A stretch of 64,000 bases of DNA from Methanothrix soehngenii GP6. Its GTDB lineage: Archaea > Halobacteriota > Methanosarcinia > Methanotrichales > Methanotrichaceae. Below the pieces are notes generated by a model. It was not told where the DNA came from. It saw nothing but the letters and a program-made list of their open reading frames with translations, and made no database searches. Both the position numbers and the translations under genes were made by a program. The stretch is from contig NC_015416.1 in assembly GCF_000204415.1 (NCBI RefSeq), forward strand, positions 868,001 to 932,000, read 5' to 3'. Positions 1,854-40,899 of this stretch are shown here, one piece after another; the stretch's first letter is position 1; every line of letters starts with the position of its first letter.

Positions 1854-2360
1854 TGAGAGGAAAGATCGTTGTGGTCCCATTCCCTTCTACAAAATCGATT
1901 CTGAACCCAGATACCATAAATGGAGCTTTTGGCCAGGCCAGCCATTATGCCCCATAACTCCTGAAATATCTGAAATATGGATAAGAAGGAGGGAGGCAAA
2001 AGTCAATTGGATGTAGGAGGGAAAAATAGCCATCGACTTTCGCCAACATACTATACGTTAATTGCCGATATAAAACCTTTCGCTTCAAGCTTCAAGCTGA
2101 AAAGATCATTTCCACCCCAAAGAAATCACCAAGAGAATGAGATCTCAAGTCCCAGGCAGGCCAGCGCCGAAAATCCACAGCGCCCTTGTCGGAGGAGCCG
2201 ATCACCGAAGTGATGGCCAGATCCCGACGATATTTAAGCCAGGCTTTGGTTCTTTGACATTGTCTGGAATTGATGAGAATGCACAGAGTTTCTTGCCGCT
2301 GCAGCACATCCTGCTATAATGCAGACCAAGTTGAAAAAAGGAGATGGGTATTGGCTGCGA

Positions 2361-3149
2361 TTACACGCAGGGCAGCCAATCAACGCTGATTGCGCCGCAG
2401 GTGGAATTACCCCAGAGCTGTATGAACTTTTGAATGGCGAAGACGCCGGTCAAATCCTCGACCGATCTGCCGTACTCAGCATGGCGGCCCTTGAGCAGCT
2501 TGTTGGGCGCAGGATCCCTAGAGATCCAGCCGATATGAGCAACGCCGATGACGTTGCTGTTGAGGTTTGCTTCAAGAACTCCAGTGCAACAATCCTTATC
2601 CAGCGTATAGCCCTCATGGTATGCATCAGTCAAGCAATAAGGACAAAAGCCGTATGACCTTGTCTTGACCTCGGTGGTCTTTTGCAGATGCTCGGCATGA
2701 GTATACATCTCAGTCAGCACAGCGCCGATTCTGTAGTTCTGCACGCACAGCTTCTCAATCCATTTTTGGTCGTAAGTGCCAGTCTGGTAAGAGACGGGCA
2801 TGTACTCGAACTCAGCCTCCTTGGTGAAGTTGATGTAGTCCATTGGAACAAAACCCGTTGGATAATCACAAATCGGCTCGTCTATCCACATATCCCAATA
2901 TAAGGGGAAGGACTGTCTATTGAGCTGTCTCTCAGCTTCAAGCTCTGTTCTCTCGGCGATCACATTGCCAGAGCCAGACTCCTTCTCGACAAGTTTGTCA
3001 CCGTTAAAACCTGTCTGCGTGGAGATGATCATCTCTACATTTTTGTAACCGACACCCTTGACTGATGCCTTTTCGTACATGTAGTTGGCAGCTCCAGCCA
3101 TGCCAATTAACATAACCACTAATGCAGCCAAAATCAGCATTCTCTTCAG
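2361..3149 (-). CDS. Membrane-anchored or secreted Cys-containing protein, unknown function
   Basis: About 262 residues. An N-terminal hydrophobic segment (MLILAALVVMLIGMAGAA) acts as a signal peptide or anchor. The extracytoplasmic part contains IDEPICDYPTGFVPMDY, FCPYCLTDAYHEGY and DKDCCTGVLEAN, with several cysteines that could form disulfides or bind metal. An ATG lies at 3140, but the only strong ribosome site (GGAGGG) sits about 7 nt before an in-frame CTG at 3149. Starting there gives the basic residues K and R expected before a signal peptide, so a CTG start is preferred here. A TATA-like AATTATATTTAA lies at about 3218-3229. No family is recognised. Confidence 0.6.
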   Translation of the reverse strand: MKRMLILAALVVMLIGMAGAANYMYEKASVKGVGYKNVEMIISTQTGFNGDKLVEKESGSGNVIAERTELEAERQLNRQSFPLYWDMWIDEPICDYPTGFVPMDYINFTKEAEFEYMPVSYQTGTYDQKWIEKLCVQNYRIGAVLTEMYTHAEHLQKTTEVKTRSYGFCPYCLTDAYHEGYTLDKDCCTGVLEANLNSNVIGVAHIGWISRDPAPNKLLKGRHAEYGRSVEDLTGVFAIQKFIQLWGNSTCGAISVDWLPCV

Positions 3150-3409
3150 TTCAATTCCCTCCTAACTGATGATAATTATCCTATCAATTCCTATTTGAGC
3201 TTTATGATTGATGATTAAATATAATTAGCTTGATCCATCAGAGACTTCACTCTAATTATAGCGAAGAGGCATGAAAAAGAGAGCGGATTTTCGCTGGCAG
3301 GAATTAGAAATGGCAAGCCCATATTCGGCAGAATTGCCCTCATCGCCATGAATCTGCAGCTCAAATGTAAATTAGTGCGAATCAGATGACTCTGGATGTT
3401 TGATCTCAA

Positions 3410-5140
3410 CCTAACCTCCCGAAAAGTTCAGGCGCACAGGTTTAGCGCCTGAAGTATTTCCCTCTGTTTTTTTGTCATTTCGGTGACTAATATCTGTCCG
3501 TCCGCCAAAGTGATTTTTCTCAATTTCTCCAATTGCAGAAGCAAGAGTTCAACAGAATACTTATCCAGTAGCTTCGCTTCTCTCATCATATTGATCAACC
3601 TCGTCCTAATGATTAGACTCAGGAAAGCGACGAAGATGAAGCCTCTTGTTGTCTTTTCACTATGAGTATTCAGCGGAAGGATATCGATTTCGTTCTTCAG
3701 AGCCTTAAAGCTTTTTTCGATTTCATCGCGCTCCCGATAAAGAGAAAGACAATTTAGCCAGTCGAAGTCCCCTGAGTAGAACAGGATATACTTACCCATT
3801 TTATTCATTCTTTGAGTCACAGCATTCTGTTTAATCGAAACATCAAAGCGATTATCTACCACATTCCATTCAAAGAAGTTTCCGAATCCTCGCGCTTTCT
3901 CTTTAAAAGCCACTTGAGGACTGCTGTTCTTCTTCAAGCGAACCTTGAGCAGCTCTTCTCGAATATCGTACAACCTGCTAAGAAGGGTCTGCTTCTCGTT
4001 TTGCTCCAATTTAGGATCATAATACACGTACCCGCGGACTTCCATATTATCAATATTATATGTAATTGGCTTAGCAAAAATTGGCTCGTTGTTAAACTTA
4101 TGCAGGTATTTTACGTCATCGATGTCCTTTTGCGCTTCGGTCATTAGTTGCTTCAGATCATTCAACTGCAACTTAGCAGCCATGACAAACGAAATTTTAT
4201 TGTCCAACAACTCACAGAGATTGCCCAAGCTAAAGAATCCCCGATCCATCACAGCAACATAGTTTTGGACTCCGTGAGCTTTAATCTTTTTCAAAGTGCC
4301 GGAAAGCGTACTGACATCAGAAATGCTTCCAGGGAAGATGTCATACATCACAGGGATTCCTTTGTCCTTATCCATAATCAAGGACATATTAATTTGCGGA
4401 AGATCCGCTCCATCGCGATTATATCCATACTCAAGAAGGTTGATAAGTTGAGAGTAACTTGATAGGCTTGTAATATCGTAAATGAGAGTGCTTTTGGTGC
4501 TGGTTCCTTCAATCAGTTGGGACATAAAGCGGTCAGGGATATTGCTTTCACCCACCCGGCAGAGAAGTTCACTTACTCGCTGGCTGGCAAGGTCGATTTG
4601 AGGAGATTCAAGAGCAAGAGCGGTCCCTTCGTACCATGAATCGACGTTCTTCATTGCCGTAGGTCTTATGATTCGGTTGAATGCCAATGCGCGAATCATG
4701 GACGCCTCGGTTGAGGGTAATAGGTTCTCTAGATAGCGATCTAAGTTAAGTTCTTCCATTATTGACTGGAGCACAAGTATAGAACCATAATCAAAAGATG
4801 ACTTGACTTCTGCAGTTTTCTTCTTTGTCTTCTCTTTGATCTCAGATGGAGCGGAACGCATCCGGACCGGCTGGCCATCGACATTTCTGCCTAAATATTT
4901 TGATCTATGTCTGATCTGCTTCTTCTCCTTATCATAATAGGGTGTTTCTTCATACCAATATTCGATACCATTTTTCACTTTGATTCTTCTAGTGGGTTTC
5001 ATTATGTGCCTCAATATAAGTAGGCGCATAAAGTATAAATACCTTTCGCCACGCAAGGCTAATATGAGTTATTTCTCAAAATAGAGGCTTCATAATTGAT
5101 ATTGATCGGTTTATGCTCCTATTTGATCCGGGAGGTTAGG
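3410..5140 (-). mobile_element. Complete IS1634-type insertion sequence with 6-bp target duplication
   Basis: A 1731-bp element bounded by perfect 12-bp inverted repeats: CCTAACCTCCCG at 3410-3421 and its reverse complement at 5129-5140. The flanks are identical direct repeats TCTCAA (3404-3409 and 5141-5146), a 6-bp target-site duplication. A single transposase gene fills the element. Intact ends, intact ORF and intact duplication indicate a recent, potentially active insertion. The family call rests on the transposase and on IS1634 elements being known for 5-6-bp or longer duplications. Confidence 0.92.
3428..5002 (-). CDS. IS1634-family DDE transposase
   Basis: 524 residues from the ATG at 5002 (MKPTRRIKVKNGIEYWYEE); upstream in-frame starts to 5056 are less likely. 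The DDE catalytic core is visible: first Asp in LIYDITSLSSYS (about residue 175), second Asp in YVAVMDRGFFSLGN (about 253), and Glu in LYRERDEIEKSFKALKNEID (about 435), with the YREK-like motif typical of IS4-related enzymes. A basic C-terminal tail follows. The frame is uninterrupted, so the enzyme is probably active. It moves the element by cut-and-paste between the inverted repeats at 3410-3421 and 5129-5140. Confidence 0.92.
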   Translation of the reverse strand: MKPTRRIKVKNGIEYWYEETPYYDKEKKQIRHRSKYLGRNVDGQPVRMRSAPSEIKEKTKKKTAEVKSSFDYGSILVLQSIMEELNLDRYLENLLPSTEASMIRALAFNRIIRPTAMKNVDSWYEGTALALESPQIDLASQRVSELLCRVGESNIPDRFMSQLIEGTSTKSTLIYDITSLSSYSQLINLLEYGYNRDGADLPQINMSLIMDKDKGIPVMYDIFPGSISDVSTLSGTLKKIKAHGVQNYVAVMDRGFFSLGNLCELLDNKISFVMAAKLQLNDLKQLMTEAQKDIDDVKYLHKFNNEPIFAKPITYNIDNMEVRGYVYYDPKLEQNEKQTLLSRLYDIREELLKVRLKKNSSPQVAFKEKARGFGNFFEWNVVDNRFDVSIKQNAVTQRMNKMGKYILFYSGDFDWLNCLSLYRERDEIEKSFKALKNEIDILPLNTHSEKTTRGFIFVAFLSLIIRTRLINMMREAKLLDKYSVELLLLQLEKLRKITLADGQILVTEMTKKQREILQALNLCA

Positions 5141-6643: not shown

Positions 6644-7781
6644 CTACTCCCACCCCTTAAAAGGGGCAGGCTTCTACGGTTTTTATTCCGACAGATTGTA
6701 GTCCCAATCTGAGTATATTGATTGCCGCATTCCAATCTCGATCCAAGGATAGCCCGCACTGAGTGCAGTTATGGACGCGATCAGAAAGCGTCTTTTCAAC
6801 CAGAATGCCACACCTGGAACACATCTTAGACGTATTTCTTGGATCTACCAGTACTACCATCGAACCGGCACTTGCAGCCTTGTACGAGGTCAGAGTCACA
6901 AGCATATTCCAAGCCACGTCTGAGATGGATTTTGCCAGGCAATGGTTTTTGAGCATATTTTGAATACTAAGATCTTCAAAGGCAATCAATCCGAACCTGT
7001 TAACCAGATACCGACTAACCTTATGGGCAAAATCGCATCGCTTGTTAGTGATCCTCTCATGGACCCGCTCAACCATCCGAAGAGCTTTCTTTCTCTCTGG
7101 AGTGCCTTTCGGTGCTTTTGAGAGCTTCCTTTGGACTCTGGCGAGTTCCGTTTCCTCTTCTCGGAAGAATCGAGGATTAGCTATCGTCTCACCATTGGAA
7201 AGAGTCGCAAAGCTTTCCAGACCAACATCTATACCAACGAGAGAACCGTCTTTCCAGGGAGGCTTAAGTTGATCTTCGATCTCCACAGAAAAGCAGGCAA
7301 ACCATTTGCCTGTCGCAGCTCTCCTTACGGTCAGCCGTTTGATCTTGCCTTCTATGGATCTATGGAGCTTGATCTTGATATTACCAATCTTGGAAAGATA
7401 GAGCTTACCAGCATTGAGCTTGAACCCCTTCTGAGGATAGGTAAAAGAATCATACCAACCTCTTCCCCGAAATCTTGGATATCCAGGATTCTCTCCGGCT
7501 TTGACTCTTCGGAAGAACGCCTTCAAAGCAAGATCCACCCTTTCCTGGGCATTCTGAAGGGTTTGGGAAAAGACATCGTTAAGTTCAGGCTTCTCTTCTT
7601 TCCAAGTTGGAAGAAGATTGTGCGTCTCGTACTTGGATACGGATTTGCCTTCTTTCTCCCAAGCATCTTTTCGGTATGCTAAGGTCTGATTGTATGTCCA
7701 CCGGCATAGATCTAGGGTCCTCTCCATCTTCGTCCTTTGGGACTTTGTTGGATAGATCCTAAATTTATATGCCTTGAGCAT
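6640..7781 (-). mobile_element. IS200/IS605-group element carrying only tnpB (IS1341 type)
   Basis: The right end is recognisable on the minus strand: the tnpB stop sits in a CCCCTT-TT-AAGGGG hairpin (6653-6666) followed by GTGGGAGTAGTCAC, ending near 6640. This hairpin-plus-TCAC end is typical of the group. No tnpA transposase is present. The left end lies upstream of 7781 but could not be placed; the region to about 7900 contains a C/G-rich imperfect hairpin (7850-7872) that might belong to it. These elements leave no target duplication, so the boundaries rest on end structure alone. Confidence 0.75.
6657..7781 (-). CDS. tnpB: TnpB RNA-guided endonuclease
   Basis: 374 residues, full length. 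The N-terminal domain starts MLKAYKFRIYPTKSQRTKME. The RuvC catalytic residues are all present: Asp in VGIDVGLESFATLSNGE (about residue 195), Glu in LIAFEDLSIQNM (about 278) and Asp in GLSLDRDWNAAINILRLG (about 350). Between the last two is the zinc ribbon CSRCGILVEKTL...CTQCG. Related TnpBs cut DNA using an RNA made from the 3' end of the element, whose guide comes from the flanking DNA. Intact catalytic residues suggest an active nuclease. The gene ends with the usual VEACPF tail inside the right-end hairpin. Confidence 0.93.
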   Translation of the reverse strand: MLKAYKFRIYPTKSQRTKMERTLDLCRWTYNQTLAYRKDAWEKEGKSVSKYETHNLLPTWKEEKPELNDVFSQTLQNAQERVDLALKAFFRRVKAGENPGYPRFRGRGWYDSFTYPQKGFKLNAGKLYLSKIGNIKIKLHRSIEGKIKRLTVRRAATGKWFACFSVEIEDQLKPPWKDGSLVGIDVGLESFATLSNGETIANPRFFREEETELARVQRKLSKAPKGTPERKKALRMVERVHERITNKRCDFAHKVSRYLVNRFGLIAFEDLSIQNMLKNHCLAKSISDVAWNMLVTLTSYKAASAGSMVVLVDPRNTSKMCSRCGILVEKTLSDRVHNCTQCGLSLDRDWNAAINILRLGLQSVGIKTVEACPF

Positions 7782-13931: not shown

Positions 13932-15140
13932 ATGCAAATAACCAAGGATTCCGGTTCGCTCTGGCCCCTCTATCTGGCGGTATTCGTCGCCGTCCTGGGA
14001 TTCACTCTGGTCGTACCATTCTTTCCCAGCTATGTTATGGACCTGGGGGCATCTTACACCCTGCTCGGGTTCATAATATCCATCTACGGAGCGTCGCAGC
14101 TGCTAGTCCAGGTGCCTATAGGCCGCCTCTCCGACCGGATGGGAAGAAAGAGGCTAATGCTCATAGGACTGATGACATTTGCAGTCCTCCCACCTCTGTA
14201 CATCTATGCCGAGAACGCCTATACCCTGCTATTCATAAGAGCTCTGGGGGGTGTCGGTGCCGCCTTCGTCTGGCCCACTGCCATGGCCCTGATCATAGAC
14301 CAGTCTCGTGCTCACAGCAGAGGAGCCGCCATGGGCTTTTACAATGCTGCCTTTTACTCCGCCCTGGCTTTAGGTCCATTTATGGGGGGAGCGCTCTATG
14401 ATCAGATGGGGCTTGAAGCACCCTTCTACTTCTGGACCCTCCTGGGAATAGCATCGATCATCATAGTCACTTTTAAAGTACCCGAATCCAGGGGCATAGT
14501 CCCGAAGGCTGATGAGCAGCCTCAAAGAAGAGAGGAGCCACTCATCGCCCCTGGATATGCGATCACATTTCTCGCCTGCTGCGCGGTCATCCTCTGGTCA
14601 GGGGTGGTGGGCGGCTTCAACATCACCCTTCTCCCTTCCTACGCCAAGGCTCTGGGCTTCTCCACCACCGATATAGGGCTCATCTATCTGGTCTATGGAG
14701 GAATCACTGCCATCTCCAACATTTACTTCGGCCGCCTGGCAGATCGAGGGAGGAGAAAATGGCTCATATTTCTGGGCAGCCTGGCTGGCCTGATCTCATT
14801 TGCGCTTCTCTTCATAGTCTCAAACCTCATCCAGGTACTGATCCTCTTTGCCGGCCTGGGTTTGGGCCTGGGCATATGCAGCCCGGCGGCTGCCGCACTC
14901 GTCGCCGATACCACCAATGCATCTCGGAGGGGGGAGACCTATGGCATCTTCAATACTGCCCGTATGTCCGGAGTGGTGGTGGGCCCTATCATGGCCGGGC
15001 TGGCGGCGGATATGCAGGGAATTGATGGCGCTTTGTATGCCTTCACTCTGATCGCCCTGGCAATAACTTTGGGAGCTGTTGCCATCCGGGAAGCAAAAGA
15101 GGATTCCGTAAATAGCAGGGAAGATGCCGATAGGCTCTGA
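13932..15140 (+). CDS. Major facilitator superfamily transporter
   Basis: 402 residues with about 12 predicted membrane helices. The MFS motif A appears between helices 2 and 3 as GRLSDRMGRKRLMLIG (about residue 65) and again in the second half as GRLADRGRRKW (about 260). A hydrophilic loop (about 185-205) separates the two six-helix halves. The pattern matches drug or metabolite exporters of the DHA type, but the substrate cannot be read from sequence. It is preceded by the RAM-domain gene and followed by a convergent secreted-protein gene. Confidence 0.9.
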   Translation: MQITKDSGSLWPLYLAVFVAVLGFTLVVPFFPSYVMDLGASYTLLGFIISIYGASQLLVQVPIGRLSDRMGRKRLMLIGLMTFAVLPPLYIYAENAYTLLFIRALGGVGAAFVWPTAMALIIDQSRAHSRGAAMGFYNAAFYSALALGPFMGGALYDQMGLEAPFYFWTLLGIASIIIVTFKVPESRGIVPKADEQPQRREEPLIAPGYAITFLACCAVILWSGVVGGFNITLLPSYAKALGFSTTDIGLIYLVYGGITAISNIYFGRLADRGRRKWLIFLGSLAGLISFALLFIVSNLIQVLILFAGLGLGLGICSPAAAALVADTTNASRRGETYGIFNTARMSGVVVGPIMAGLAADMQGIDGALYAFTLIALAITLGAVAIREAKEDSVNSREDADRL

Positions 15141-15225
15141 AAAGGGTGACAGAAAAGACCTATTGAGCTGCAGGAGGGGTCAACTCCCGCCAGCCCGATT
15201 TCGGCAGCGATCCGTTCCAGTATCC

Positions 15226-15618
15226 TTATTGGCTCAAATTCGTCCAGGAGCCCTGGCCACCCACTCGGAATGAGGATTTATCTTTGGCATACAGCAGATT
15301 GTTCTCTGCATGGCCGTCGAAGGTGGGAGAGGCCAGGAAAGATGCGGTCCCTTTTCCAGCGCTGGTGATCATTATAGAGTTGGTGACATTTGTATAGTTG
15401 ACCGGAATGGCACGCATATAGAAGTCCTCGCCCAGGGTGGAGTAATAGGTAAAACCAGCGATCCTGGTGAGGGCAGTGTCTGTGATATTGAAGGCGGCGT
15501 TGGCTGAATAATATTCCGATATCGGGAAGGATAGAGGATCGGTATAAAGCCAAGTCGTTCCCAGGGTGGTACTGGCCAGCATTAGGAGCACGGCAGCCGA
15601 AATGAGATGCTTTATCAT
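15226..15618 (-). CDS. Small secreted protein, unknown
   Basis: About 130 residues from ATG 15618 (MIKHLISAAVLLMLASTTLG), a clean signal peptide. The preferred start has AAGGCGG upstream and fits a TATA-like GATTTAAATC at about 15645-15654; an ATG at 15636 lies too close to that TATA. The mature part is Ser/Thr/Asn-rich and beta-like with several N-glycosylation sequons (NIT, NYT, NVT, NLS). No family was recognised. It lies just downstream of the giant surface protein gene, separated by a terminator. Confidence 0.65.
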   Translation of the reverse strand: MIKHLISAAVLLMLASTTLGTTWLYTDPLSFPISEYYSANAAFNITDTALTRIAGFTYYSTLGEDFYMRAIPVNYTNVTNSIMITSAGKGTASFLASPTFDGHAENNLLYAKDKSSFRVGGQGSWTNLSQ

Positions 15619-15678
15619 GAACCGCCTTGCTTGCATGAAAAGGATTTAAATCTAACTGACGTTTGGAAAGAAAAATCG

Positions 15679-15709
15679 GAGGTGGGCATATTTCTCCTCT
15701 GCCCACCTC
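15679..15709 (-). terminator. Intrinsic-type terminator of the giant surface-protein gene
   Basis: A perfect 10-bp inverted repeat, GAGGTGGGCA and TGCCCACCTC, with an 11-nt loop. On the minus strand it is followed by CGATTTTTCTTTCC. It lies about 100 nt past the stop of the large gene that ends at 15813. Hairpin plus T-tract supports termination of minus-strand transcription. Confidence 0.7.
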
Positions 15710-15812
15710 AAAAAGCTTCAAGCCAGCAGCCTTTGCATCCTTTCCGATCCAGAAGCTGCAGGCATTATGCTTATTTGCAGTCTCTTTGCCTTTCTATTCG
15801 ATGTGCTGGCTC

Positions 15813-18800
15813 CTACCGTCTCACCATATCCTGCAGCATATAGCCCTGGCCCATGGCACTGTCATAAGCATTGGCTGGGGCATGCTTGCCGTCTCTGACA
15901 TACACATAGACCCTATAGTTGCCAGCATCGGTGGGAGCACTGGACCAGGTCCACTGATTCTTAGCTGACCAGCTCTGCACGATCCTCCAAACATTGCCGG
16001 TGGAGGGGCCTTTCAGCCAGAACTGATAGTACAGTGGATCTTTATCTGCATCGCTAGCGGTTGCCGTCCACTTAACCGGAGTTCCAGCTCCCTGGGGGCT
16101 GGGGCGGTCGGATTTCAGAGCGGTCAGAACCGGCGGCTGATTGGAGATCAGCTGATAGGAGGAGCCCAGAGCGCTATCGTACCCGGTGTCAGGGTAATGC
16201 CAGCCGTCTCTGGCGTAGACGTAGACCGTATAGGCTCCGCCATCATTTGGCATGCTGGACCAGGTCCACTGGTTCGCCAGGGACCAGTCTTGAGCTATCT
16301 GCCAGACGTTGCCGGTGGAGGGGCCTTTCAACCAGAACCGGTAGTATATCGGATCTTTATCTGCATCGATTGCCGCAGCGGTCCACTTAACCGGGGTTCC
16401 AGCTCCTTGAGGGCTGAGGCGGTCGGATTTCAGAGCGGTCAGAACCGGCGGCTGATTGGGGGCCAGGATGAAGGGGGCCCCCACAGCGCTATCATATCCG
16501 GTCTCAGGATTATGCCAGCCATCCCGGACATAGACATAGACCGTATAGGCTCCGCCATCGGACGGCAGGCTGGCCCAGGTCCACTGATTCTTATATGACC
16601 AGTCCTGCACTATCTTCCAGCTGTTCCCGGTGGATGGACCCTTCAGCCAGAACCGGTAAAGCAGTGGCTCCATATCCGGGTCAGTCGCTATTGCTGTCCA
16701 GGTCACAGGCGTTCCTGCCTTCTGGGAGCTGGGTTTGTCCGATCCAAGGGAGATCAGAGTGGGGGGCAGATTCTGCCGCCGCACTGTGAACAGCGCACCA
16801 GCATCATCGTCCCATCCGGCTGGGCTGGAATGGAGGCCATCCCTCACCTGCACCTTGATCTCGCTGGTGCCCGCATCAGCCGGCGTTGTCGGCCAGGTCC
16901 AGGTTGGATCGGTGGACCAGTCGCGGACCATTCGCCACAGTCCGCCGGTCGATGGACCCCTCATCCAGTACCTGAAGAAGAGCGGATTGCCCTCCGGGTC
17001 GCTGGCGGTGGCCGCCCATCTGATGGTAGCTCCTACTGGCTGTGCGCTGGGCAGGTTCGTGCCCAGGCCGGTGATCACCGGAGGCAGGTTCACATTCATG
17101 ATGAAGAACCGGCCAACCTGATAGTCATCCGAGCCGGCAGGTCCGGCATGCTTGCCGTCCCTGACTGCTACCAGCACCTCGCTGTAGCCCACGTCTGCAG
17201 GAGTGGTCCTCCAGATCCACTGGTTGCTCTTGCCCCAGCCGGTCATATCCACCCAGAATCCGCGGGTGGCAGGACCGCGCAGGAAGAACCGGTACTGCAA
17301 GGGGTCTCTGTCTGGATCAGAGGCTATAGCCGTCCACTTGATCCAGCTGCCGGCATACTGCGGCTCAGGCCGGTCGGTGTAAAGGACCTGCACACTGGGC
17401 GGCAGATTGCCGCCGGTCAGGCTAAAGGAGACGGTCTTCTTGACATCGTATCCTCCTGGGCCGGAATGCTGTCCATCCCTTATCCAGACCTCAACCTCAT
17501 ACTTACCGGCAGGATAGCCGAGAGTGTTCCAGGTCCAGACGCTCCTGCTGCTATAGCCGGTGTCCAGGTTGATTCCCGGCCCTCTAACCAGGAATCTGTA
17601 CTGGAGAGGATCAAGGTCATCTGCCCTGGCCGTCCAGATGATCGGTGTTCCAGACCTCTGGGGACTGCTCTTGTCCGGGATAAGTGATGGATTGGCAGGC
17701 AATGGATTCCAGTTGCCGAAATCCTTTCCAGAAACGCTGGTAGTGGATGAATCCAGGGTGACGGTATAAGTGCCACTCGCTGGTGCCTTCTGATCCCATC
17801 CGGGCTGATGAATCTCCCGAACGGTATAGGTTCCAGAGGCAACATCCGTGAAACTGTAAGAGCCGTCAGCTTCGGTGGTTGCAACCTTTATCACCCCTCC
17901 TCCAGCCGGCTCCAGGTTGATCTTCCAGCCGCCCATTCCTGGCTCGCCGGGATCTCTGACCCCGTTGCCGTTGATATCGTTGTACTTCACTCCAGAGATG
18001 GATTGAGCTGCCAATCTATTCCCAAAGTCGTTGTCCTTTGCCTCTCTGGGAGGTGTTCTCACATCGAAGACTATGCTGTGGCTCCCCCCCGCTGGAGCGG
18101 TCTGCGTCCAGCCGGTTCTTGAGGTCTCGCTAACCTTGTATGTGCCGGGAAGGAGCCTCTCGAACTTGTAGTTGCCGTTGTTGTCCGTGGTGGCGGTAAG
18201 GGTGGGAAGCGGCTTGCCAAACCAGGTGCTCCCGGTCAGGACCATCTCCCAGCCGGAAAGGCCCTTCTCACCGGGATTCTTGGTGCTGTCGCTATTCAGA
18301 TCCTCGTACTTCATTCCGGATATGGAATTAGATCCGCGTATTCCGAAGTTGACGTTGGTCACCACTACCGTTTTGATGGTCACTGTGACCGTGGAAGAGG
18401 TGGTGAGGACCATGCCCGTCGGGACGGGATCGTTTATGGTGTAGGTCCCAGGCAGGACGTTCTCGAAGCTGTAGAGTCCGTTCTCATCGGTGGTGGTATT
18501 GGCCACTACCTTGCCGTTCTCGACCAGGCTCACTTCCCCGCCGGGAATGCCAGGCTCATCCTCGTCCTGCAGGCCGTTGCCGTTGATGTCATAGTACTTC
18601 TGGCCGGAGATGGAAAGACCGCCGCTGTTGGCGAAATCCTTGTCGGCCACATCGGCATCCTTAAGCTCAACCGTCCAGGGGCCTTCAGGTGCTATCTGAT
18701 TGATGCCCTCTGCAGCGACCTGGCTTATGCTGTAGGTTCCAGGAGACAGATTGCGGAAGGCATAAGAGCCATCTTCAAGCGTGGTGGTGGCATTTATGAC

Positions 18801-21800
18801 GCTACCGTCGCGGGATAGCTGAATGGCCACTCCAGCCCTGCCCGGCTCGCCCTCATCCTTGACGCCGTTGCCGTTGCTGTCCAGGAAGCTGGTTCCTGAT
18901 ATGGCAAAGGAGCCGTGGTTGCCGAAGTTTATGTCTGCTACATCCCCATCCGTCAGCTCCACGGTGTAGGAGCCTTCAGGAGGTGCAGTCCTGGTCCAGC
19001 CAGCCTGCTCGACCTCGGATACGGTGTAGCTTCCGGGGGATAGCTCTGCGAACTTATAGGATCCGTCCTTTTCCGTGGTGGCAGTGCTGATCAAACTGCC
19101 GTCTCTAGAGAGCTCAATCGTCCAGCCCTCCATTCCCGGCTCGCCGTCGAAGGCACCGTTGCCGTTCAGGTCGTTGAACTTCCTGCCGGAGATGGTGTAC
19201 TGGACGAGCTTGTTGACGAAGTCCAGGCCTTCAACGTCTCCTTCGGAGAGATCGACGTTATGAGATCCGCCTTCGGGAATTGCTGCTACCCAGCCAGATG
19301 GCAGAGTCTCGCTGATGGTGTAGCTTCCAGCATCAAGATCCTGGAAACTATAGGTTCCATCCTCTCGGGTTAAGACGCTAACCTGGCTTTGATCCGGTTT
19401 GGTTATCTGTACCGTCCAGCCGGATAAGGCCTCGCCGCTGTCAGACACGCCATTTCCGTTCTTGTCCTCATATACCAGGCCCGAGATGTTCATCTTCGGC
19501 TCGGCGAGGGTGAAGTAGCCGGAGTACTCGGAGTCAAAGCCGTCTTCGCCAGAGTGCTGTCCATCTCTAACCTGAACTTTAACCTGATTCTCTCCCCGAT
19601 CTATTGAGGATGTCACCCAGGCCCAGGTATCATCTGAAATCCATTCTGTCTTTGGCTCCCAGGCTCCATTTGTTGCCGGTCCATTGAGGAAGAACCGGAA
19701 GAGCAACGGATCCATGTCCACGTCAGTGGCATTGGCGGTCCAGGTTACAGTCACCCCTGGCTTCTGGGGGCTTATGATATCCGGAATCAGAGAGTTCAGC
19801 ACAGGGGTCTGATTCTCCACAACAGGAGCTACGACCTCTGCATCCTCTTCAGATACCTCTTCGGTCAGGTTCTCGGTGATGTTCTCCGGTGCAATGGGAG
19901 TGGTGATGTTCTCAGTCACTGGAGGGGCCAGAGTATCCTCTGGGATCTCCACCACTTCAGTCACATTCTCCGCCTCAGCGGTCATATTGGCCTGAGCGGT
20001 GGCATTCTCTTCATCTGTGATATTGGCGGGAGCTGTCACATTGACCTGGTCAGTGACATTTGTCTCAGCTGGAGCGATCTCCTCCGCAGGTTCCTCTGCA
20101 AAGGGAGCTTCTTCATCGAGCGGCATTATGACGAACTCGGAGCTTCTATTTCCGCTCTCGCCCTCCGGCCCCTCATGCTGATCGTCCCTGGCCTGGGCTG
20201 TGATCAGGAATGATCCGGCCTCAGATGCAGTCCAGATGAACTTGTTTTCTGCCTGCCAGTCGGTGACTGCAGTCTCGTTGACCAGGAAGCGATAAGATAT
20301 GGGATCATCTTCCGGATCGCTGGCAACTGCTGTCCAGTTGACACTGCTTCCCAGAACCTGGGGGCTTCCCAGATCGGCTGAAAGCTCTGTGATGCTTGGT
20401 GATTCATTCGGCTCAGCAGCGGCCTCTTCGACCGGTTCTGCTTCTGCGACCTCCTCAACAGCTTCTTCTGCCAGAGGCATTGTTATGGCGAACTCAGAGC
20501 TTCTGTTTCCGCTCTCGCCTTCGGGTCCATCGTGCTGATCGTCTTTGACCTGCACGGTGACCAATGCCGTTCCGGCCCCTGTTGCCGTCCAGGCGAACAG
20601 ATTCTCAGACTGCCAGTCGGTGACTGGAGTATCGTTGACCAGGAAGCGGTAGGATATGGTATCATTTTCCGCATCGCTGGCCGTTGCCGTCCAGTTGACA
20701 CTGCTTCCCAGGACCTGGGGGCTCTCCAAATCTGGAGCCAGGCTTATAATGCTCGGAGACTCATTGAGCTCGACGGGCAGGATCTCCTCTTCTGCCTCCT
20801 CAGCTGCTGGCTCAGGAGCGGTTATGACAAATTCGGTGCTTATGCTTCCGGTTTCAGCTGCAGGCTCATCGTGCTGATCGTCTTTGACCTGCACGGTGAT
20901 CAATGCCGTTCCGGCCTCTGTTGCCGTCCAGGGGAACAGATTCTCGGGTTGCCAGTCGGTGACTGGGGTATCGTTGACCAGGAAGCGGTAGGATATGGTA
21001 TCATTTTCCGCATCGCTGGCCGTTGCTGTCCAATTGATCCTGCTTCCCAGAAGCTGTGGGCTTGCCAGATCAGCGGCCAGATCCATTAGCTCTGGCGGAT
21101 TGTTTGGAGCAGCCTCAACCACGAATTCCGCTGTCCTGGAGCTATCTCCTTCCGGATTGTGGTTGTTGTCCCGAGCCCTGACCTCGATGGTATGGGAGCC
21201 GATCTCCTGCTCGGTTGTCGTCCAGGTCCAGCTCGGGCTGGAGGTGAACTCAGTCTGAGCCACGTCATCCAAGAGGAACATGAACTCCAATGTATCATTT
21301 TCCGGATCGGATGCCGCCGCAGTGAATGTTACTGCTGTCCCGGCTATCTGGGGGCTGGCTAGATCTGAAGCCAGATCAAATACCTCAGGCGGATTGTTTG
21401 GAGCAGCCTCAACCACGAATTCCGCTGTCTGGGAGCTATCTCCTTCCGGATTGTGGTTGTTGTCTCTCGCCCGAACCTCGATGGTATGGGAGCCGATATC
21501 CTGCTCGGTTGTCGTCCAGGTCCAGCTGGGATTATTAATGAAATCCGTGCGAGCCTGGCCATCAACCAGGAACATGAACTCCAATGGATCGTTCTCGGGA
21601 TCGGATGCTGCCGCAGTGAATGTTACTGCTGCTCCGGCTATCTGGGGGCTGGCTAGATCTGAAGCCAGATCAAATACCTCAGGCGGATTGTTGGGAACCG
21701 CCTCAACCACGAATTCCGCTGTCTGGGAGCTATCTCCTTCTGGATTGTGGTTGTTGTCCCGAGCCCTGACCTCGATGGTATGGGAGCCAATATCCTGCTC

Positions 21801-24800
21801 GGTTGTTGTCCAGGTCCAGCTCGGGATGGAGGTGAACTCAGTCTGAGCCACGTCATCCAAGAGGAACATGAACTCCAATGTATCATTTTCCGGATCGGAT
21901 GCGGCCGCAGTGAAGGTCACTGCTGCGCCAGCAATTTGGGGGCTGGCTAGATCTGAAGCCAGATCAACTACCTCTGGTGGATTGTTGGGAACTGCTTCAA
22001 CGACAAACTCCGCTGTCTTGGAGCTATCTCCTTCTGGATTGTGGTTGTTATCTCTCGCTCGAACCTCTATAATGTGCGATCCAATGCTCTCAGTGGTGGT
22101 TGTCCAAGTCCAGCTCGGGCTGGAGATGAACTCGGTCTGAGCCACGCCATCCAAGAGGAACATGAACTCCAATGGATCGTTCTCTGGATCGGATGCCGCC
22201 GCAGTGAATGTCACTGCTGCGCCAGCAATTTGGGGACTGGCCAGATCTGAAGCCAGATCAACTACCTCAGGCGGGTTGTTGGGAACTGCTTCAACGACAA
22301 ACTCCGCTGTCTTGGAGCTATCTCCTTCTGGATTGTGGTTGTTGTCTCTCGCTCGAACCTCTATAATGTGCGATCCAATGCTCTCAGTGGTGGTTGTCCA
22401 GGTCCAGCTCGGGCTGGAGATGAACTCGGTCTGAGCCACGCCGTCCAAAAGGAACATGAACTCCAATGGATCGTTCTCAGGATCAGATGCGTCTGCAGTG
22501 AAGGTCACTGCTGCGCCAGCAATTTGGGGACTGGCCAGATCTGAAGCCAGATCAACTACCTCTGGTGGATTGTTGGGAACTGCTTCAACGACAAACTCCG
22601 CTGTCTTGGAGCTATCTCCTTCTGGATTGTGGTTGTTGTCTCTCGCTCGAACCTCTATAATGTGCGATCCAATGCTCTCAGTGGTGGTTGTCCAGGTCCA
22701 GCTCGGGCTGGAGATGAACTCGGTCTGAGCCACGCCGTCCAAAAGGAACATGAACTCCAATGGATCGTTCTCAGGATCAGATGCGGCTGCAGTGAAGGTC
22801 ACTGCTGCGCCAGCAATTTGGGGGCTGGCCAGATCTGAAGCCAGATCAACTACCTCTGGTGGATTGTTGGGAACTGCTTCAACGACAAACTCCGCTGTCT
22901 TGGAGCTATCTCCTTCTGGATTGTGGTTGTTGTCTCTCGCTCGAACCTCTATAATGTGCGATCCAATGCTCTCAGTGGTGGTTGTCCAGGTCCAGCTCGG
23001 GCTGGAGATGAACTCGGTCTGAGCCACGCCGTCCAAAAGGAACATGAACTCCAATGGATCGTTCTCCGGATCGGATGCGGCTGCGGTGAATGTCACTGCT
23101 GTCCCGGCTATCTGGGGGCTGGCTAGATCGGCAACCAGATCCACTAACTCTGGCGGGTTGTTGGGAACTGCTTCAACGACAAAATCCATCGTCCTTGAGC
23201 TGTCGCCCTCAGGGTTGTGGTTGTTGTCCCGGGCCCGAACCTCGATGGAATGGGAGCCGATATCCTGCTCGGTTGTCGTCCAGGTCCAGCTGGGATTATT
23301 AATGAAATCCGTGCGAGCCTGGCCGTCAACCAGGAACATGAACTCCAATGGATCGTTCTCTGGATCGGATGCCGCTGCAGTGAATGTCACTGCTGCGCCA
23401 GCTATTTGGGGGCTGGCTAGATCGGCAACCAGATCCACTAACTCTGGCGGGTTGTTGGGAACTGCTTCAACGACAAAATCCATCGTCCTTGAGCTGTCGC
23501 CCTCAGGGTTGTGGTTGTTGTCCCGGGCCCGAACCTCGATGGAATGGGAGCCGATATCCTGCTCGGTTGTCGTCCAGGTCCAGCTGGGATTATTAATGAA
23601 ATCCGTGCGAGCCTGGCCATCAACCAGGAACATGAACTCCAATGGATCGTTCTCTGGATCGGATGCCGCTGCAGTGAATGTCACTGCTGCGCCAGCTATT
23701 TGGGGGCTGGGCTGATCGGCAGAGAGATCGACCATCTGGGGTGGATTGTTTGGCACCGGCTCAATGGCAAACTGAGTCGCCTGAGAGCTGTCACCCTGTG
23801 GATTGTGGTTGTTATCTCTGGTCCGTGCCTCGATGGTATGGGAGCCAATATCCTGCTCGGTTGTCGTCCAGGTCCAGCTGGGATTATTAATGAAATCCGT
23901 GCGAGCCTGGCCATCAACCAGGAACATGAACTCCAATGGATCGTTCTCTGGATCGGATGCCGCTGCAGTGAATGTCACTGCTGCGCCAGCTATTTGGGGG
24001 CTGGGCTGATCGGCAGAGAGATCGACCATCTGGGGTGGATTGTTTGGCACCGGCTCAATGGCAAACTGAGTCGCCTGAGAGCTGTCACCCTGTGGATTGT
24101 GGTTGTTGTCCCGGGCCCGAACCTCGATGGAATGGGAGCCGATATCCTGCTCGGTTGTCATCCAGGTCCAGCTGGGATTATTAATGAAATCCGTGCGAGC
24201 CTGGCCGTCAACCAGGAACATGAACTCCAATGGATCGTTCTCCGGATCGGATGCTGCCGCGATGAAGGTCACCGCTGCACCAGCAATCTGGGGACTGGCT
24301 AGATCGGCATTAAGGCTCAGCACTTGAGGAGGCTGATTTACCGGCGCTGCTATCTGCTCAGGGGCCTGCACTATCGGCTGTTCAATCACAGGAGCCTGTT
24401 CCAATTCGGGAACGGCTGCAGGCGCACTGACCTCTGCCGGGACCTGGGGAGCTGTTATTTGATAGTCTATTATCCTCTCATCGAGCTTGAAGTCCCCACT
24501 GGTATGCATTGGATCTCTCACTAAGACTCTGATCTGGTAGTTTCCCGGCTCCAATGCAGCCGTGTTCCATGTCCAGGTGTTCTCATCTATCCATTGCGTC
24601 AATGGGACCCATGTAGCAGAATCCTTTAGCTGGAACATATACGATATTGGATCGTTCTCAGGGTCCTCCGCCCGAACCGTCCATTTTATAGCGGTGCCCA
24701 TAGGCTGGGGGCTGGGCTTGTCTGGCTCGACGCTTCTGATCGATGGCGGTTGATTTGCAATATCTGAAAATGCAGAATCAACCTGCTCAGGGAAACCTAT

Positions 24801-24971
24801 CCCCTCGGGAAATCCCCCAGGCTGTTCCTGCGCATAAGCGAACGCACTCAAGAGCACGCTCACAGACAGGATCATAGCAAGAACAAGAAATTGCTTCTTG
24901 TATCTATGATTCAGCACTTTTTTTAATTTAACATTAACTGTATACTCACTATCCTTATCCCTTTTACGCAT
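15813..24971 (-). CDS. Giant repeat-rich surface protein (Ig-like and SdrD_B-like repeats)
   Basis: About 3052 residues from ATG 24971 (MRKRDKDSEYTVNVKLKKVL); a TTG at 25007 is less likely. A hydrophobic export segment (FLVLAMILSVSVLLSAFAYA, about 27-48) is followed by Ig-like domains of a PKD/cadherin-like kind (N-x-P-P, S-P-Q, D-P-E-N-D-P). There is one divergent copy, eleven near-identical 98-residue copies, three further copies with Glu/Ala-rich linkers, a Thr/Asn/Glu linker and one more copy. Next come six SdrD_B/CNA-B-like domains (ISG-x-x-Y-x-D-x-N-G-N-G) and six C-terminal Ig-like copies. No C-terminal anchor is visible. A role in the sheath, adhesion or cell contact is inferred. Confidence 0.85.
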   Translation of the reverse strand: MRKRDKDSEYTVNVKLKKVLNHRYKKQFLVLAMILSVSVLLSAFAYAQEQPGGFPEGIGFPEQVDSAFSDIANQPPSIRSVEPDKPSPQPMGTAIKWTVRAEDPENDPISYMFQLKDSATWVPLTQWIDENTWTWNTAALEPGNYQIRVLVRDPMHTSGDFKLDERIIDYQITAPQVPAEVSAPAAVPELEQAPVIEQPIVQAPEQIAAPVNQPPQVLSLNADLASPQIAGAAVTFIAAASDPENDPLEFMFLVDGQARTDFINNPSWTWMTTEQDIGSHSIEVRARDNNHNPQGDSSQATQFAIEPVPNNPPQMVDLSADQPSPQIAGAAVTFTAAASDPENDPLEFMFLVDGQARTDFINNPSWTWTTTEQDIGSHTIEARTRDNNHNPQGDSSQATQFAIEPVPNNPPQMVDLSADQPSPQIAGAAVTFTAAASDPENDPLEFMFLVDGQARTDFINNPSWTWTTTEQDIGSHSIEVRARDNNHNPEGDSSRTMDFVVEAVPNNPPELVDLVADLASPQIAGAAVTFTAAASDPENDPLEFMFLVDGQARTDFINNPSWTWTTTEQDIGSHSIEVRARDNNHNPEGDSSRTMDFVVEAVPNNPPELVDLVADLASPQIAGTAVTFTAAASDPENDPLEFMFLLDGVAQTEFISSPSWTWTTTTESIGSHIIEVRARDNNHNPEGDSSKTAEFVVEAVPNNPPEVVDLASDLASPQIAGAAVTFTAAASDPENDPLEFMFLLDGVAQTEFISSPSWTWTTTTESIGSHIIEVRARDNNHNPEGDSSKTAEFVVEAVPNNPPEVVDLASDLASPQIAGAAVTFTADASDPENDPLEFMFLLDGVAQTEFISSPSWTWTTTTESIGSHIIEVRARDNNHNPEGDSSKTAEFVVEAVPNNPPEVVDLASDLASPQIAGAAVTFTAAASDPENDPLEFMFLLDGVAQTEFISSPSWTWTTTTESIGSHIIEVRARDNNHNPEGDSSKTAEFVVEAVPNNPPEVVDLASDLASPQIAGAAVTFTAAASDPENDTLEFMFLLDDVAQTEFTSIPSWTWTTTEQDIGSHTIEVRARDNNHNPEGDSSQTAEFVVEAVPNNPPEVFDLASDLASPQIAGAAVTFTAAASDPENDPLEFMFLVDGQARTDFINNPSWTWTTTEQDIGSHTIEVRARDNNHNPEGDSSQTAEFVVEAAPNNPPEVFDLASDLASPQIAGTAVTFTAAASDPENDTLEFMFLLDDVAQTEFTSSPSWTWTTTEQEIGSHTIEVRARDNNHNPEGDSSRTAEFVVEAAPNNPPELMDLAADLASPQLLGSRINWTATASDAENDTISYRFLVNDTPVTDWQPENLFPWTATEAGTALITVQVKDDQHDEPAAETGSISTEFVITAPEPAAEEAEEEILPVELNESPSIISLAPDLESPQVLGSSVNWTATASDAENDTISYRFLVNDTPVTDWQSENLFAWTATGAGTALVTVQVKDDQHDGPEGESGNRSSEFAITMPLAEEAVEEVAEAEPVEEAAAEPNESPSITELSADLGSPQVLGSSVNWTAVASDPEDDPISYRFLVNETAVTDWQAENKFIWTASEAGSFLITAQARDDQHEGPEGESGNRSSEFVIMPLDEEAPFAEEPAEEIAPAETNVTDQVNVTAPANITDEENATAQANMTAEAENVTEVVEIPEDTLAPPVTENITTPIAPENITENLTEEVSEEDAEVVAPVVENQTPVLNSLIPDIISPQKPGVTVTWTANATDVDMDPLLFRFFLNGPATNGAWEPKTEWISDDTWAWVTSSIDRGENQVKVQVRDGQHSGEDGFDSEYSGYFTLAEPKMNISGLVYEDKNGNGVSDSGEALSGWTVQITKPDQSQVSVLTREDGTYSFQDLDAGSYTISETLPSGWVAAIPEGGSHNVDLSEGDVEGLDFVNKLVQYTISGRKFNDLNGNGAFDGEPGMEGWTIELSRDGSLISTATTEKDGSYKFAELSPGSYTVSEVEQAGWTRTAPPEGSYTVELTDGDVADINFGNHGSFAISGTSFLDSNGNGVKDEGEPGRAGVAIQLSRDGSVINATTTLEDGSYAFRNLSPGTYSISQVAAEGINQIAPEGPWTVELKDADVADKDFANSGGLSISGQKYYDINGNGLQDEDEPGIPGGEVSLVENGKVVANTTTDENGLYSFENVLPGTYTINDPVPTGMVLTTSSTVTVTIKTVVVTNVNFGIRGSNSISGMKYEDLNSDSTKNPGEKGLSGWEMVLTGSTWFGKPLPTLTATTDNNGNYKFERLLPGTYKVSETSRTGWTQTAPAGGSHSIVFDVRTPPREAKDNDFGNRLAAQSISGVKYNDINGNGVRDPGEPGMGGWKINLEPAGGGVIKVATTEADGSYSFTDVASGTYTVREIHQPGWDQKAPASGTYTVTLDSSTTSVSGKDFGNWNPLPANPSLIPDKSSPQRSGTPIIWTARADDLDPLQYRFLVRGPGINLDTGYSSRSVWTWNTLGYPAGKYEVEVWIRDGQHSGPGGYDVKKTVSFSLTGGNLPPSVQVLYTDRPEPQYAGSWIKWTAIASDPDRDPLQYRFFLRGPATRGFWVDMTGWGKSNQWIWRTTPADVGYSEVLVAVRDGKHAGPAGSDDYQVGRFFIMNVNLPPVITGLGTNLPSAQPVGATIRWAATASDPEGNPLFFRYWMRGPSTGGLWRMVRDWSTDPTWTWPTTPADAGTSEIKVQVRDGLHSSPAGWDDDAGALFTVRRQNLPPTLISLGSDKPSSQKAGTPVTWTAIATDPDMEPLLYRFWLKGPSTGNSWKIVQDWSYKNQWTWASLPSDGGAYTVYVYVRDGWHNPETGYDSAVGAPFILAPNQPPVLTALKSDRLSPQGAGTPVKWTAAAIDADKDPIYYRFWLKGPSTGNVWQIAQDWSLANQWTWSSMPNDGGAYTVYVYARDGWHYPDTGYDSALGSSYQLISNQPPVLTALKSDRPSPQGAGTPVKWTATASDADKDPLYYQFWLKGPSTGNVWRIVQSWSAKNQWTWSSAPTDAGNYRVYVYVRDGKHAPANAYDSAMGQGYMLQDMVRR
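21105..24338 (-). repeat. Tandem array of eleven 294-bp units inside the surface-protein gene
   Basis: Measured from the codon for the first Asn of N-Q/N-P-P in unit one (24338) to the same codon after the array (21104), the span is 3234 bp, exactly 11 x 294. Neighbouring units are nearly identical over long stretches, especially units 5-8. Units alternate between two sub-types, one with VDGQARTDFINNPSW and one with LDGVAQTEFISSPSW. The preserved reading frame and near identity point to recent tandem duplication and gene conversion. Confidence 0.9.
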
Positions 24972-25252
24972 ATCCTCACTCTCCTCTCCTATCCCACTTC
25001 CTTCCAACGGCCTTCATGGCCGAGAACTATCATCCGATTTATCATTTCATCAACCATCTGATCCCTATCTGGACCCCTATTCTGATTCTTGCTCTGCATT
25101 CCATCTAATGGCTCATTTGATATCTCACAGATCTTCCATCAGGAGATTATGAACTTATTTTTCACATAGAGGCTCTATCAAGATCTCTTCGGGGATCAAT
25201 CTCATGTGAAACCTCTGTGATTCCCGTATAGATCTAGAGCAGATGGATGATT

Positions 25253-37868: not shown

Positions 37869-40673
37869 TCAGTGGTAGAACGATCTCCAGGCGCTCCATC
37901 CTCCGGATCGATCATGGGTGGTATAGTATATGTTACCCTTGTTATCGGTGGCAAATACGACCGGCACTATGTCTCCGCCGGTCTCCTCCTGCCACCGGCT
38001 GGCCGTCAGAGAGACGATGCCCTCCGGTTGAGGCTGAAGGGATTTGGCTGAGGGAGCATAAAGGTTGGTGGCCCATGGTTGCCAGTCTCCCCAGCCTTGC
38101 GAGGAATCCTTTGAGACCATCGCTCTGACCCAAAGTGCTCCTTTCTCATCCACTGCAAAGATCCAGGTTTGCTCGTCTTCCGTCCAGGCCGCATCGATAT
38201 CGATAATGGCTGATTTTGAAGGGTTCTCGAAATTGCCTGGCGCCGTCCATGAGGAGGAGGGCTTTGCCTCCATCTGCCAGAGCGTGGCCAGCCCGCCGGC
38301 CGAGTCGATCAGGAAGGCCTGCTCGGTTCCGTCCGCCCTGCGCAGTGCAGTCACCTTACGAATGGATCCAGATGCGGTGAGCTTCTCCCAGCCCTTCCAG
38401 GCGGAGTCGGGCTCTTTGTTAATCCGGCCGCGAGTGTAGAGATTGCCGTCATCCCCCACCACAAAGATCTGGTTGTTGCCCTCAGAGTCGTAGGCGGCAT
38501 CCACATCGAGGGCCTCCGTCACTCCAGCGGGAAGATCGATGGTTGTCCATCCATTCCAGCTGTCGCTGCTCTTGGACACTGCCCGAGTATAGAGCTTGCC
38601 CGCTTCGCTTGTGACTACCACTTGCGGCTTGGCATTGGTCTGGATGAAAGCTGCAATCTGTCTGGGGCTGGTGATCGATCCCAAGGAACTGAATGCAGAG
38701 AAACCGTCAGCAACGCTATTGCCATTTCGGCTTCTGGTAACCACAAGATCATTGTCGGAATCAATGACAAAAACTTCAGTTCGAGCGCTTCCGTCAACAT
38801 GGCGGGCTATGGCCACGTTCTTGGCAAACCTGGGTGCATATTGGAATCTCTTGGCGCTTGGTCCCGCATTCAAATGATCGAGAGCTGGACCCTGATCGCC
38901 GCATGCTTCACAGGTGAACGCCGGATTCCAGGCGGCGGTGTAGACATTCGAATCGACGCTCGCCGCAAAGACGTCTAGCCAGTCGCTGCTTCTTGATATG
39001 GCTCCCAGGCAGGAGCCAGGCTTAAAAGAAGCATCCAGGACGTTTTGCCAGCCCTTCCAGCCGCATGGAAATTTGGGCTCCCATCCGTTTGCTTGAACCT
39101 TGCCATCAGGACCGACCACAAAGATATCAAGCTTGTCAGTGCCCCTGGATACGGCTGCGATGTAAGACTCCGGATCCGCGGCTAGATCGCCGATTCTCGA
39201 CCATCCATGCCAGCCGTCTGTGAATCCGGGCTCCCAGGCTGCGGTGTAGATGCCCCCGTCCGAGCCGGTAACAAAAACATCGAGCTTATCGGCACCCCTG
39301 GATACAACGCTCACCGGTGAGCCGGGATCGACTGCATTGTTGCCTATCCTCCACCAGCCGTGCCAGCCGTCCTCAAATCCGGGCTCCCAGGCTGCGGTGT
39401 AGATGCCCCCATCCGAGCCGGTAACAAAAACATCGAGCTTATCGGCACTCCTGGATACAACGCTCACCGGTGAGCCGGGATCGACTGCATTGTTGCCTAT
39501 CCTCCACCAGCCGTGCCAGCCGTCCTCAAATCCGGGCTCCCAGGCTGCGGTGTAGATGCCCCCGTCCGAGCCGGTAACAAAAACATCGAGCTTATTGGCA
39601 CTCCTGGATACAACGCTCACCGGTGAGCCGGGATCGACTGCAATATCGCCTATCCTCCACCAGCCGTGCCAGCCGTCCTCAAAAGCGGGATTCCAGGAGG
39701 CAGTATAGATCCCACCGTCATTGCCGACGACAAATATATCCAGCCAATCCGCACCTCTGGATGTGACAGACACTGAAGATCCCGGTTTTGCCTCCAGATC
39801 GGAAATCCGCCACCAGCCCTTCCAGGTAGAGTCCGTCTGCGGTCCCCAGGCAGCCGTATAGATTCCGCCGTCCTTTCCGACGACAAAGACATCTAGATTA
39901 TTGGCGCCTCTTGAGGCAACAGATACTGGCGATCCGGGCTCGACCTGGAGATCGGCTATGCTCCACCAGCCATGCCATTGCACGGGATTCCCTGGACCGT
40001 GGATCACCCCGGCCAGGAAGTGGTTATTTCCTATTTTGTAAAGCACTGGGGAGCCTGAGTTGCCGCCCACCGTGGCACAATCAAAGAATAGCTGGTCCTG
40101 GTCAATCTTGTAAACCTTACATTCAGGGTCCACGAGCGCAGGCTGCCACCAGACATTGCATCCCATCTTGCTCGAGCCTCCGGGCGGAGCTTGTCCCATA
40201 CCGAAGAAGGATAGATCGCGACCGTACCCGGATGAATTTACGTTTGCAGGAACAGTCAAGATGCAAGCTATCGGCAGAGCCGGAAAGTCTGTCACATCTT
40301 TTGCCAGATGCCCTATCCCCCAATCCGATGCCTGAAATTCGCCTCCTGTCTCTACGCGGGTTCCTACGACTGCGCGGTCTATGGCAAATGACTGCGTATT
40401 GGTTCTATTGGGATTAAAGTTGGGGTAGAAGAAGAGATTGTTTTGCCAAGAGCCAGTATCATCGTAGCAGAAACAGTGTGCAGCAGCCACTATATGCCTG
40501 GAATCTATCAGAGTCGCCGTGCAGCCGTTATCCATGTAGCCGACAGCTCCCCACGGAAGCGAGTTGCTCATGGGCATAAGAAAGCGATCGTCGGGGCAGA
40601 ATACCACGGCGCTTCCGGGCGTCAAATCATAAATTAGGAATAATAATATAAATAGTAAACTAATTTTATTCAA
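37869..40673 (-). CDS. Secreted trypsin-like protease fused to a PLL-type beta-propeller
   Basis: About 934 residues if started at TTG 40673 (then NKISLLFILLFLIYDLTPGS, a signal peptide); the frame is open back to 40853 without a better start. The protease domain has CTATLIDSRHIVAAAHCFCY (His), ASDWGIGHLAKD (likely Asp) and ATVGGNSGSPVLYKIGN (Ser). The remainder is many copies of a ~51-residue repeat, WHGWWRIG, then a D-P-G-S-P-V-S-V turn and GSDGGIYTAAWEPGFEDGW. This matches the PLL/DUF346 lectin-like propeller. The repeats may bind sugars and target the protease to cell surface or sheath. The start codon is uncertain. Confidence 0.8.
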   Translation of the reverse strand: MNKISLLFILLFLIYDLTPGSAVVFCPDDRFLMPMSNSLPWGAVGYMDNGCTATLIDSRHIVAAAHCFCYDDTGSWQNNLFFYPNFNPNRTNTQSFAIDRAVVGTRVETGGEFQASDWGIGHLAKDVTDFPALPIACILTVPANVNSSGYGRDLSFFGMGQAPPGGSSKMGCNVWWQPALVDPECKVYKIDQDQLFFDCATVGGNSGSPVLYKIGNNHFLAGVIHGPGNPVQWHGWWSIADLQVEPGSPVSVASRGANNLDVFVVGKDGGIYTAAWGPQTDSTWKGWWRISDLEAKPGSSVSVTSRGADWLDIFVVGNDGGIYTASWNPAFEDGWHGWWRIGDIAVDPGSPVSVVSRSANKLDVFVTGSDGGIYTAAWEPGFEDGWHGWWRIGNNAVDPGSPVSVVSRSADKLDVFVTGSDGGIYTAAWEPGFEDGWHGWWRIGNNAVDPGSPVSVVSRGADKLDVFVTGSDGGIYTAAWEPGFTDGWHGWSRIGDLAADPESYIAAVSRGTDKLDIFVVGPDGKVQANGWEPKFPCGWKGWQNVLDASFKPGSCLGAISRSSDWLDVFAASVDSNVYTAAWNPAFTCEACGDQGPALDHLNAGPSAKRFQYAPRFAKNVAIARHVDGSARTEVFVIDSDNDLVVTRSRNGNSVADGFSAFSSLGSITSPRQIAAFIQTNAKPQVVVTSEAGKLYTRAVSKSSDSWNGWTTIDLPAGVTEALDVDAAYDSEGNNQIFVVGDDGNLYTRGRINKEPDSAWKGWEKLTASGSIRKVTALRRADGTEQAFLIDSAGGLATLWQMEAKPSSSWTAPGNFENPSKSAIIDIDAAWTEDEQTWIFAVDEKGALWVRAMVSKDSSQGWGDWQPWATNLYAPSAKSLQPQPEGIVSLTASRWQEETGGDIVPVVFATDNKGNIYYTTHDRSGGWSAWRSFYH
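39189..39647 (-). repeat. Three near-identical 153-bp repeats in the propeller region
   Basis: Copies start at 39189, 39342 and 39495, exactly 153 bp apart, and differ at only a few bases; more divergent copies flank them. Each encodes one 51-residue propeller blade. The near identity indicates recent duplication or gene conversion in this gene. Confidence 0.8.
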
Positions 40674-40899
40674 TTTCTGACCGTTGCCTCTGTCTGTGAT
40701 ATGATGATTATGCCTGATAAAGAGAGATTTTCTCTCCCCACCGGAGTTTTCGGATTTGACTGCAAATGGAATAGTATACCCCTCCCGAATACCAAATTGG
40801 CTGCCTGTCGATCTGTTACACATTTGATCATTACTATATTGGGGTGGGCTCATTCACATTCAAAGATAAATACTTTTACCCAATAAGAAAACAAAATCC

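Follow-up and report, generated by a model that had tools for sequence, protein, structure and literature searches.

The closest described systems are the Periscope Proteins, among them Sgo_0707/SHIRT, SasG and Rib. Each is a single chain with an N-terminal array of tandem, highly similar, individually folded domains of 50–165 aa, whose number varies between strains with recombination as the mechanism. They have been described for bacterial surfaces, mostly of pathogens facing hosts, and archaea are not mentioned in these accounts (PMC8201768, PMC9704523). Among archaea, halomucin HmuI of Haloquadratum walsbyi is a giant secreted protein with direct repeats. Its length differs between two strains (9,159 against 7,837 aa); this is attributed to repeat recombination and is described in terms of a few deletions rather than a change in a regular Ig-unit array (PMC3119063). 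VARTIG modules of Thermococcales involve a large Ig-domain protein shaped by recombination, whose hypervariable C-terminal Ig domain is swapped between species and has variable neighbour genes (PMC8416519). Sheath adhesins of the Methanotrichales are Ig-like chains with a proposed role in adhesion (PMC11576556). Serial SdrD_B domains are found in the SdrC/D/E MSCRAMMs of staphylococci.

We analysed a 64,000-nt stretch of the Methanothrix soehngenii GP6 chromosome (NC_015416.1, positions 868,001–932,000), here called the window, whose own numbering is used throughout. The ORF map and translation give a giant protein on the minus strand at 15813–25007, 3064 codons when read from a TTG. The likely start codon is the ATG at 24971, preceded by the ribosome-binding stretch GAGAGTGAGGAT, whose reading (ESEDM) recurs in orthologues. 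Hydropathy and sequence motif mark an N-terminal Sec-type signal peptide (24828–24971), a hydrophobic stretch followed by AYA-QEQ. Hydropathy revealed nothing else in the protein that resembles a membrane segment, nor a membrane anchor at the C-terminus. The preliminary description called the protein exposed; the signal peptide and domain types fit this, and from them we infer a surface location.

The domain order is signal peptide, 16 Ig, six SdrD_B, six Ig. The first Ig-like domain (24450–24749) is orthologous by position across the genus, and a Pro/Ala/Glu-rich linker (24336–24449) separates it from an array of 11 Ig-like units (21108–24341). A divergent twelfth unit (20814–21107), with about 50% DNA identity to the array, lies outside the homogenised block. 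Two further divergent Ig-like domains with linkers follow (20118–20759), then a 104-aa Glu/Asn/Thr-rich linker dense in N-glycosylation sequons (19806–20117) and an Ig-like domain immediately before the SdrD_B block (19503–19805). The six SdrD_B-type domains (17700–19490) mostly open with ISGxx[YF]xDxNGNG, and the six C-terminal Ig-like domains (15816–17699) measure about 95–105 aa. Pfam matches were to Big_9, Big_7, Y_Y_Y and SdrD_B. The protein has a pI of 4.15, and no cysteine occurs in the five regions tallied. The last C-terminal Ig domains contain a 315-bp repeat of 2.3 copies at 80% (15940–16658), and the fourth and fifth of the C-terminal domains (GP6_C4 and GP6_C5) group together in the unit tree, a hint of slower homogenisation in this zone too.

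Genes around the giant protein are housekeeping genes: fae upstream, with DnaK/DnaJ/chaperonin genes beyond it, and genes for an MFS protein, a TPR protein and carbamoyl-phosphate synthase downstream. We found no report of this giant protein in the literature on Methanothrix. The same genome has a paralogue with related Ig units (G000:C1 369695–370996, a 986-aa frame). Elsewhere in the window, in a 994-aa protein (37869–40853, minus strand), a trypsin-like protease domain precedes tandem repeats of 51 aa (153 bp) that are almost identical; these repeats (39189–39719, about 3.5 copies, 93% match) form a second in-frame array some 15 kb from that of the giant protein. An IS605-type OrfB/TnpB-like protein with OrfB_IS605 and Cas12f1-like TNB domains is encoded at 6657–7781 (minus strand).

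An exact array of 11 repeats of 294 bp had been noted before, and it is real. TRF returned a single array at 21058–24305 with period 294, 11.0 copies and 0% indels; identity at lag 294 was 0.90 over 21105–24338 and fell to 0.27 at lags 291 and 297. The bounds first assigned, 21105–24338, were right to within one codon, the protein register being 21108–24341. We number the units u1 to u11 in protein order, u1 being at the high-coordinate end. Adjacent units had been described as nearly identical, which holds for u6 and u7 (two codons differ); other adjacent pairs fall to as low as 80% DNA identity, from a maximum of 99%, and distant pairs to 70%. With units 70–99% alike, much of the GP6 array is not recent. 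Both sub-types reported earlier recur in protein order, VDGQARTDF in u1–4 and u10 and LDGVAQTEF in u5–8, and a variant, LDDVAQTEF, is present in u9 and u11. The array occurs at one locus only in the genome. One 19-bp stretch is common to all units; a search for it in viral contigs gave no match.

Each array unit is predicted to be an individually folded Ig-like beta-sandwich domain. An AF2 model of two units reached a pLDDT of 95.5 and a pTM of 0.67, and Foldseek matched it to tandem Ig and cadherin chains, generic matches that point to no specific function. Short Pro-rich linkers lie between units, and with this two-unit pTM the array may or may not form a rigid, extended rod.

The units carry clear footprints of recombination. 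Tracts identical at lag 294 cross unit borders, with lengths of 260, 212, 242 and 216 bp between adjacent units. They form a staircase: the left part of the unit is common to u2 and u3, the right part to u3 and u4, the left part to u4 and u5, and the right part (nearly) to u5–u8. A one-unit tandem duplication by misaligned exchange, that is, unequal crossover, leaves such a pattern. Unit identity also decays with distance along the array, from 0.902 to 0.860 and 0.821 and then about 0.78 (Mantel r = −0.58, p = 0.0013). The preliminary description had read the mixing of sub-types as ongoing gene conversion. A mosaic is indeed present: PHI gave 0 of 2,000 permutations, so that site order is highly non-random, GENECONV-like runs among units were significant, and Rm = 18 indicates at least 18 recombination intervals. 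Most of the pattern, however, is that of unequal crossover. The exception is u10, whose flanks resemble u9 and u11 but whose middle has 111 bp identical to u3, seven units away, and 101 bp identical to u2. This island does not fit single crossovers and calls for a conversion-like event, although two crossovers could also make it. Phase (on/off) variation, previously raised alongside size variation, is unlikely: every unit is a multiple of three, and gain or loss stays in frame.

We compared the locus with its orthologues in Methanotrichaceae, one genome per species. Nearly all orthologues whose contig extends that far have fae upstream, and several have the TPR-MFS-carbamoyl-phosphate synthase order downstream. 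The SdrD_B and C-terminal blocks are kept, at 60–62% identity across the genus; 4–6 Ig domains follow SdrD_B in all orthologues complete at that end, and the first three of these group by position in the unit tree. By contrast, GP6 has 16 Ig domains before SdrD_B, Ch14 has 12 and the closed genome G046 has 11; five genomes have 8, and the remaining counts are 7, 6, 5 and 2. Most of these genomes are draft MAGs, whose assembly may have merged near-identical repeats, and the two closed genomes (GP6 and G046) are among those with the highest counts.

Unit phylogeny agrees with repeated, independent amplification at one shared slot. All eleven units of GP6 fall in a single clade (100/99), whose sister comprises the five units of G024 and a single unit of GL140. 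Ch14, GoSlDig, JPMR/G044 and G046 each have their own groups of near-identical units, with different founder units and with periods across lineages of 282–297 bp; units from outside the arrays mostly cluster with those at the corresponding position in other species. In closed G046 there are ten array units, several with 0 nt differences, and a repeated 573-bp dimer period; its relatives, at 87–92% DNA identity over the conserved part, carry between 1 and 4 such units. The copy-number change by recombination that had been predicted from the array is thus strongly supported between species, by the range of 2–16 N-terminal Ig domains, the lineage-specific unit clades and the staircase tracts, and further by the identical units of closed G046. 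The fae-like gene upstream of the orthologue in G046 (L149 9374–9912) gives a two-part alignment interrupted by about 40 bases, which may be an insertion or a frame change. The orthologue is broken into two ORFs in three draft genomes, through a frame overlap in L054 (9344–11365 and 10930–15711) and through a single stop in L059 (9029–14704 / 14708–15763) and L067 (499–2298 / 2302–3765); these may be assembly errors or real disruptions.

Judged from its sequence, the GP6 protein is best classed as an archaeal tandem-Ig stalk of periscope-like type, one that would work like a periscope protein rather than a proven member of that class. Like the Periscope Proteins, it has highly identical tandem repeats longer than 50 residues in what the sequence gives as a single chain (11 x 98 aa, N-terminal); the repeats fold individually by prediction; and unit number varies between related genomes. 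A signal peptide is present with no C-terminal membrane segment, and attachment to the surface is presumed. Unlike them, it is archaeal, has no cell-wall motif, has adjacent-unit identity down to 80%, and carries extra SdrD_B and C-terminal Ig blocks with no known ligand-binding head; its variation is between species (87–92% DNA identity and beyond), whereas theirs is between strains. HmuI, compared here by its published description, differs in its domains. VARTIG membership was rejected: the C-terminal part is conserved across the genus, as are the downstream genes where contigs reach, and exchange lies within the array. The SdrD_B block matches Pfam PF17210 at E = 3.6e-86, like that of the staphylococcal MSCRAMMs. 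Assignment to MSCRAMM SdrD itself was rejected, as the protein scores 160 bits against an NCBIfam full-length cut-off of 2500; neither an SD-repeat nor an LPXTG-type anchor was seen in it.

Our preferred explanation, to which we give a probability of roughly 70%, is a secreted, probably sheath- or surface-associated protein with an N-terminal tandem-Ig stalk whose unit number is changed by recombination, length being the main evolving trait. Alternatively, the repeats could be structural filler of a long secreted matrix or sheath glycoprotein, expanding and contracting with little effect and with their number untuned. Sequence under purifying selection together with very different unit numbers between species would suit this, as would the failure of Pfam to recognise any known adhesive domain. 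Yet one slot has been amplified again and again in separate lineages, whereas within this gene the C-terminal Ig zone, whose units are fairly similar (up to about 80% DNA identity), keeps 4–6 copies, and we regard filler as rather unlikely. Less probable again is that sub-type mixing is mainly gene conversion diversifying a ligand face, for antigenic or recognition diversity. Sub-types do differ in a 99–210 nt cassette with common flanks, the u10 island is double-ended, and between-type pN is highest, at 0.30, in codons 42–56. But pS in those codons, at 0.75, exceeds pN, and the pN/pS ratio, 0.19 for the array as a whole, stays under 1 in each segment. The units are thus conserved rather than diversified, and we reject diversifying selection on them; moreover, both the distance decay and the staircase are expected from unequal crossover.

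A sheath adhesin as published, with Ig-like domains added to a two-sheet amyloid sheath (SH) core, has precedent in Methanotrichales SH proteins with several Ig-like domains (PMC11576556), and we consider it very improbable for GP6. SH proteins without Ig domains measure 150–350 aa (PMC11576556), and here nothing longer than the Asn/Thr-rich linker, roughly 104 aa, lies outside the Ig and SdrD_B domains; we reject this identity on the domain map, which leaves no longer unassigned stretch in the mature protein and no room for such a core. Least probable of all is mis-assembly as the source of the unit number. Assemblies are known to go wrong at tandem repeats (PMC6868369), and u6 and u7 are only two codons apart. 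Against this, 116 variable positions make nearly all GP6 units distinguishable, the genome is in 2 contigs, and similar arrays occur in several MAGs and in another genome assembled as a single contig.

The reading we prefer, a stalk with a changeable number of units, combines two processes that are well supported: in-frame gain and loss of units by recombination, and purifying selection on their sequence. Neighbouring units have nearly identical DNA, so that homologous recombination, presumably RadA-dependent, would misalign the array and add or remove whole 294-bp units in frame. Continued exchange among units would keep them alike, as in concerted evolution, while purifying selection would restrain change within units, so that mainly length evolves. 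The conserved C-terminal part and the analogy with periscope proteins suggest an orientation in which the SdrD_B and C-terminal Ig domains most likely remain close to the cell, with reach or spacing set by the N-terminal array. Gain or loss of units would then most likely alter how far this extracellular Ig stalk reaches, or the spacing that it sets.

We also entertain, more tentatively and at somewhat below even odds, that this is an archaeal periscope in the full sense: polymorphic in length within living Methanothrix populations, fast-changing, and with its array rebuilt from different founders because adjustable reach is selected. If true, the selected reach would serve in forming granules or in making contact with partners that donate electrons. 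Such a protein in a free-living methanogen, with independent amplifications at one site in several lineages, would allow the tuning of length to be told apart from the evasion of immunity. Counting its units in long-read metagenomes from digesters would also provide a ready marker for relating surface-protein length to granulation or syntrophic contact in Methanothrix.
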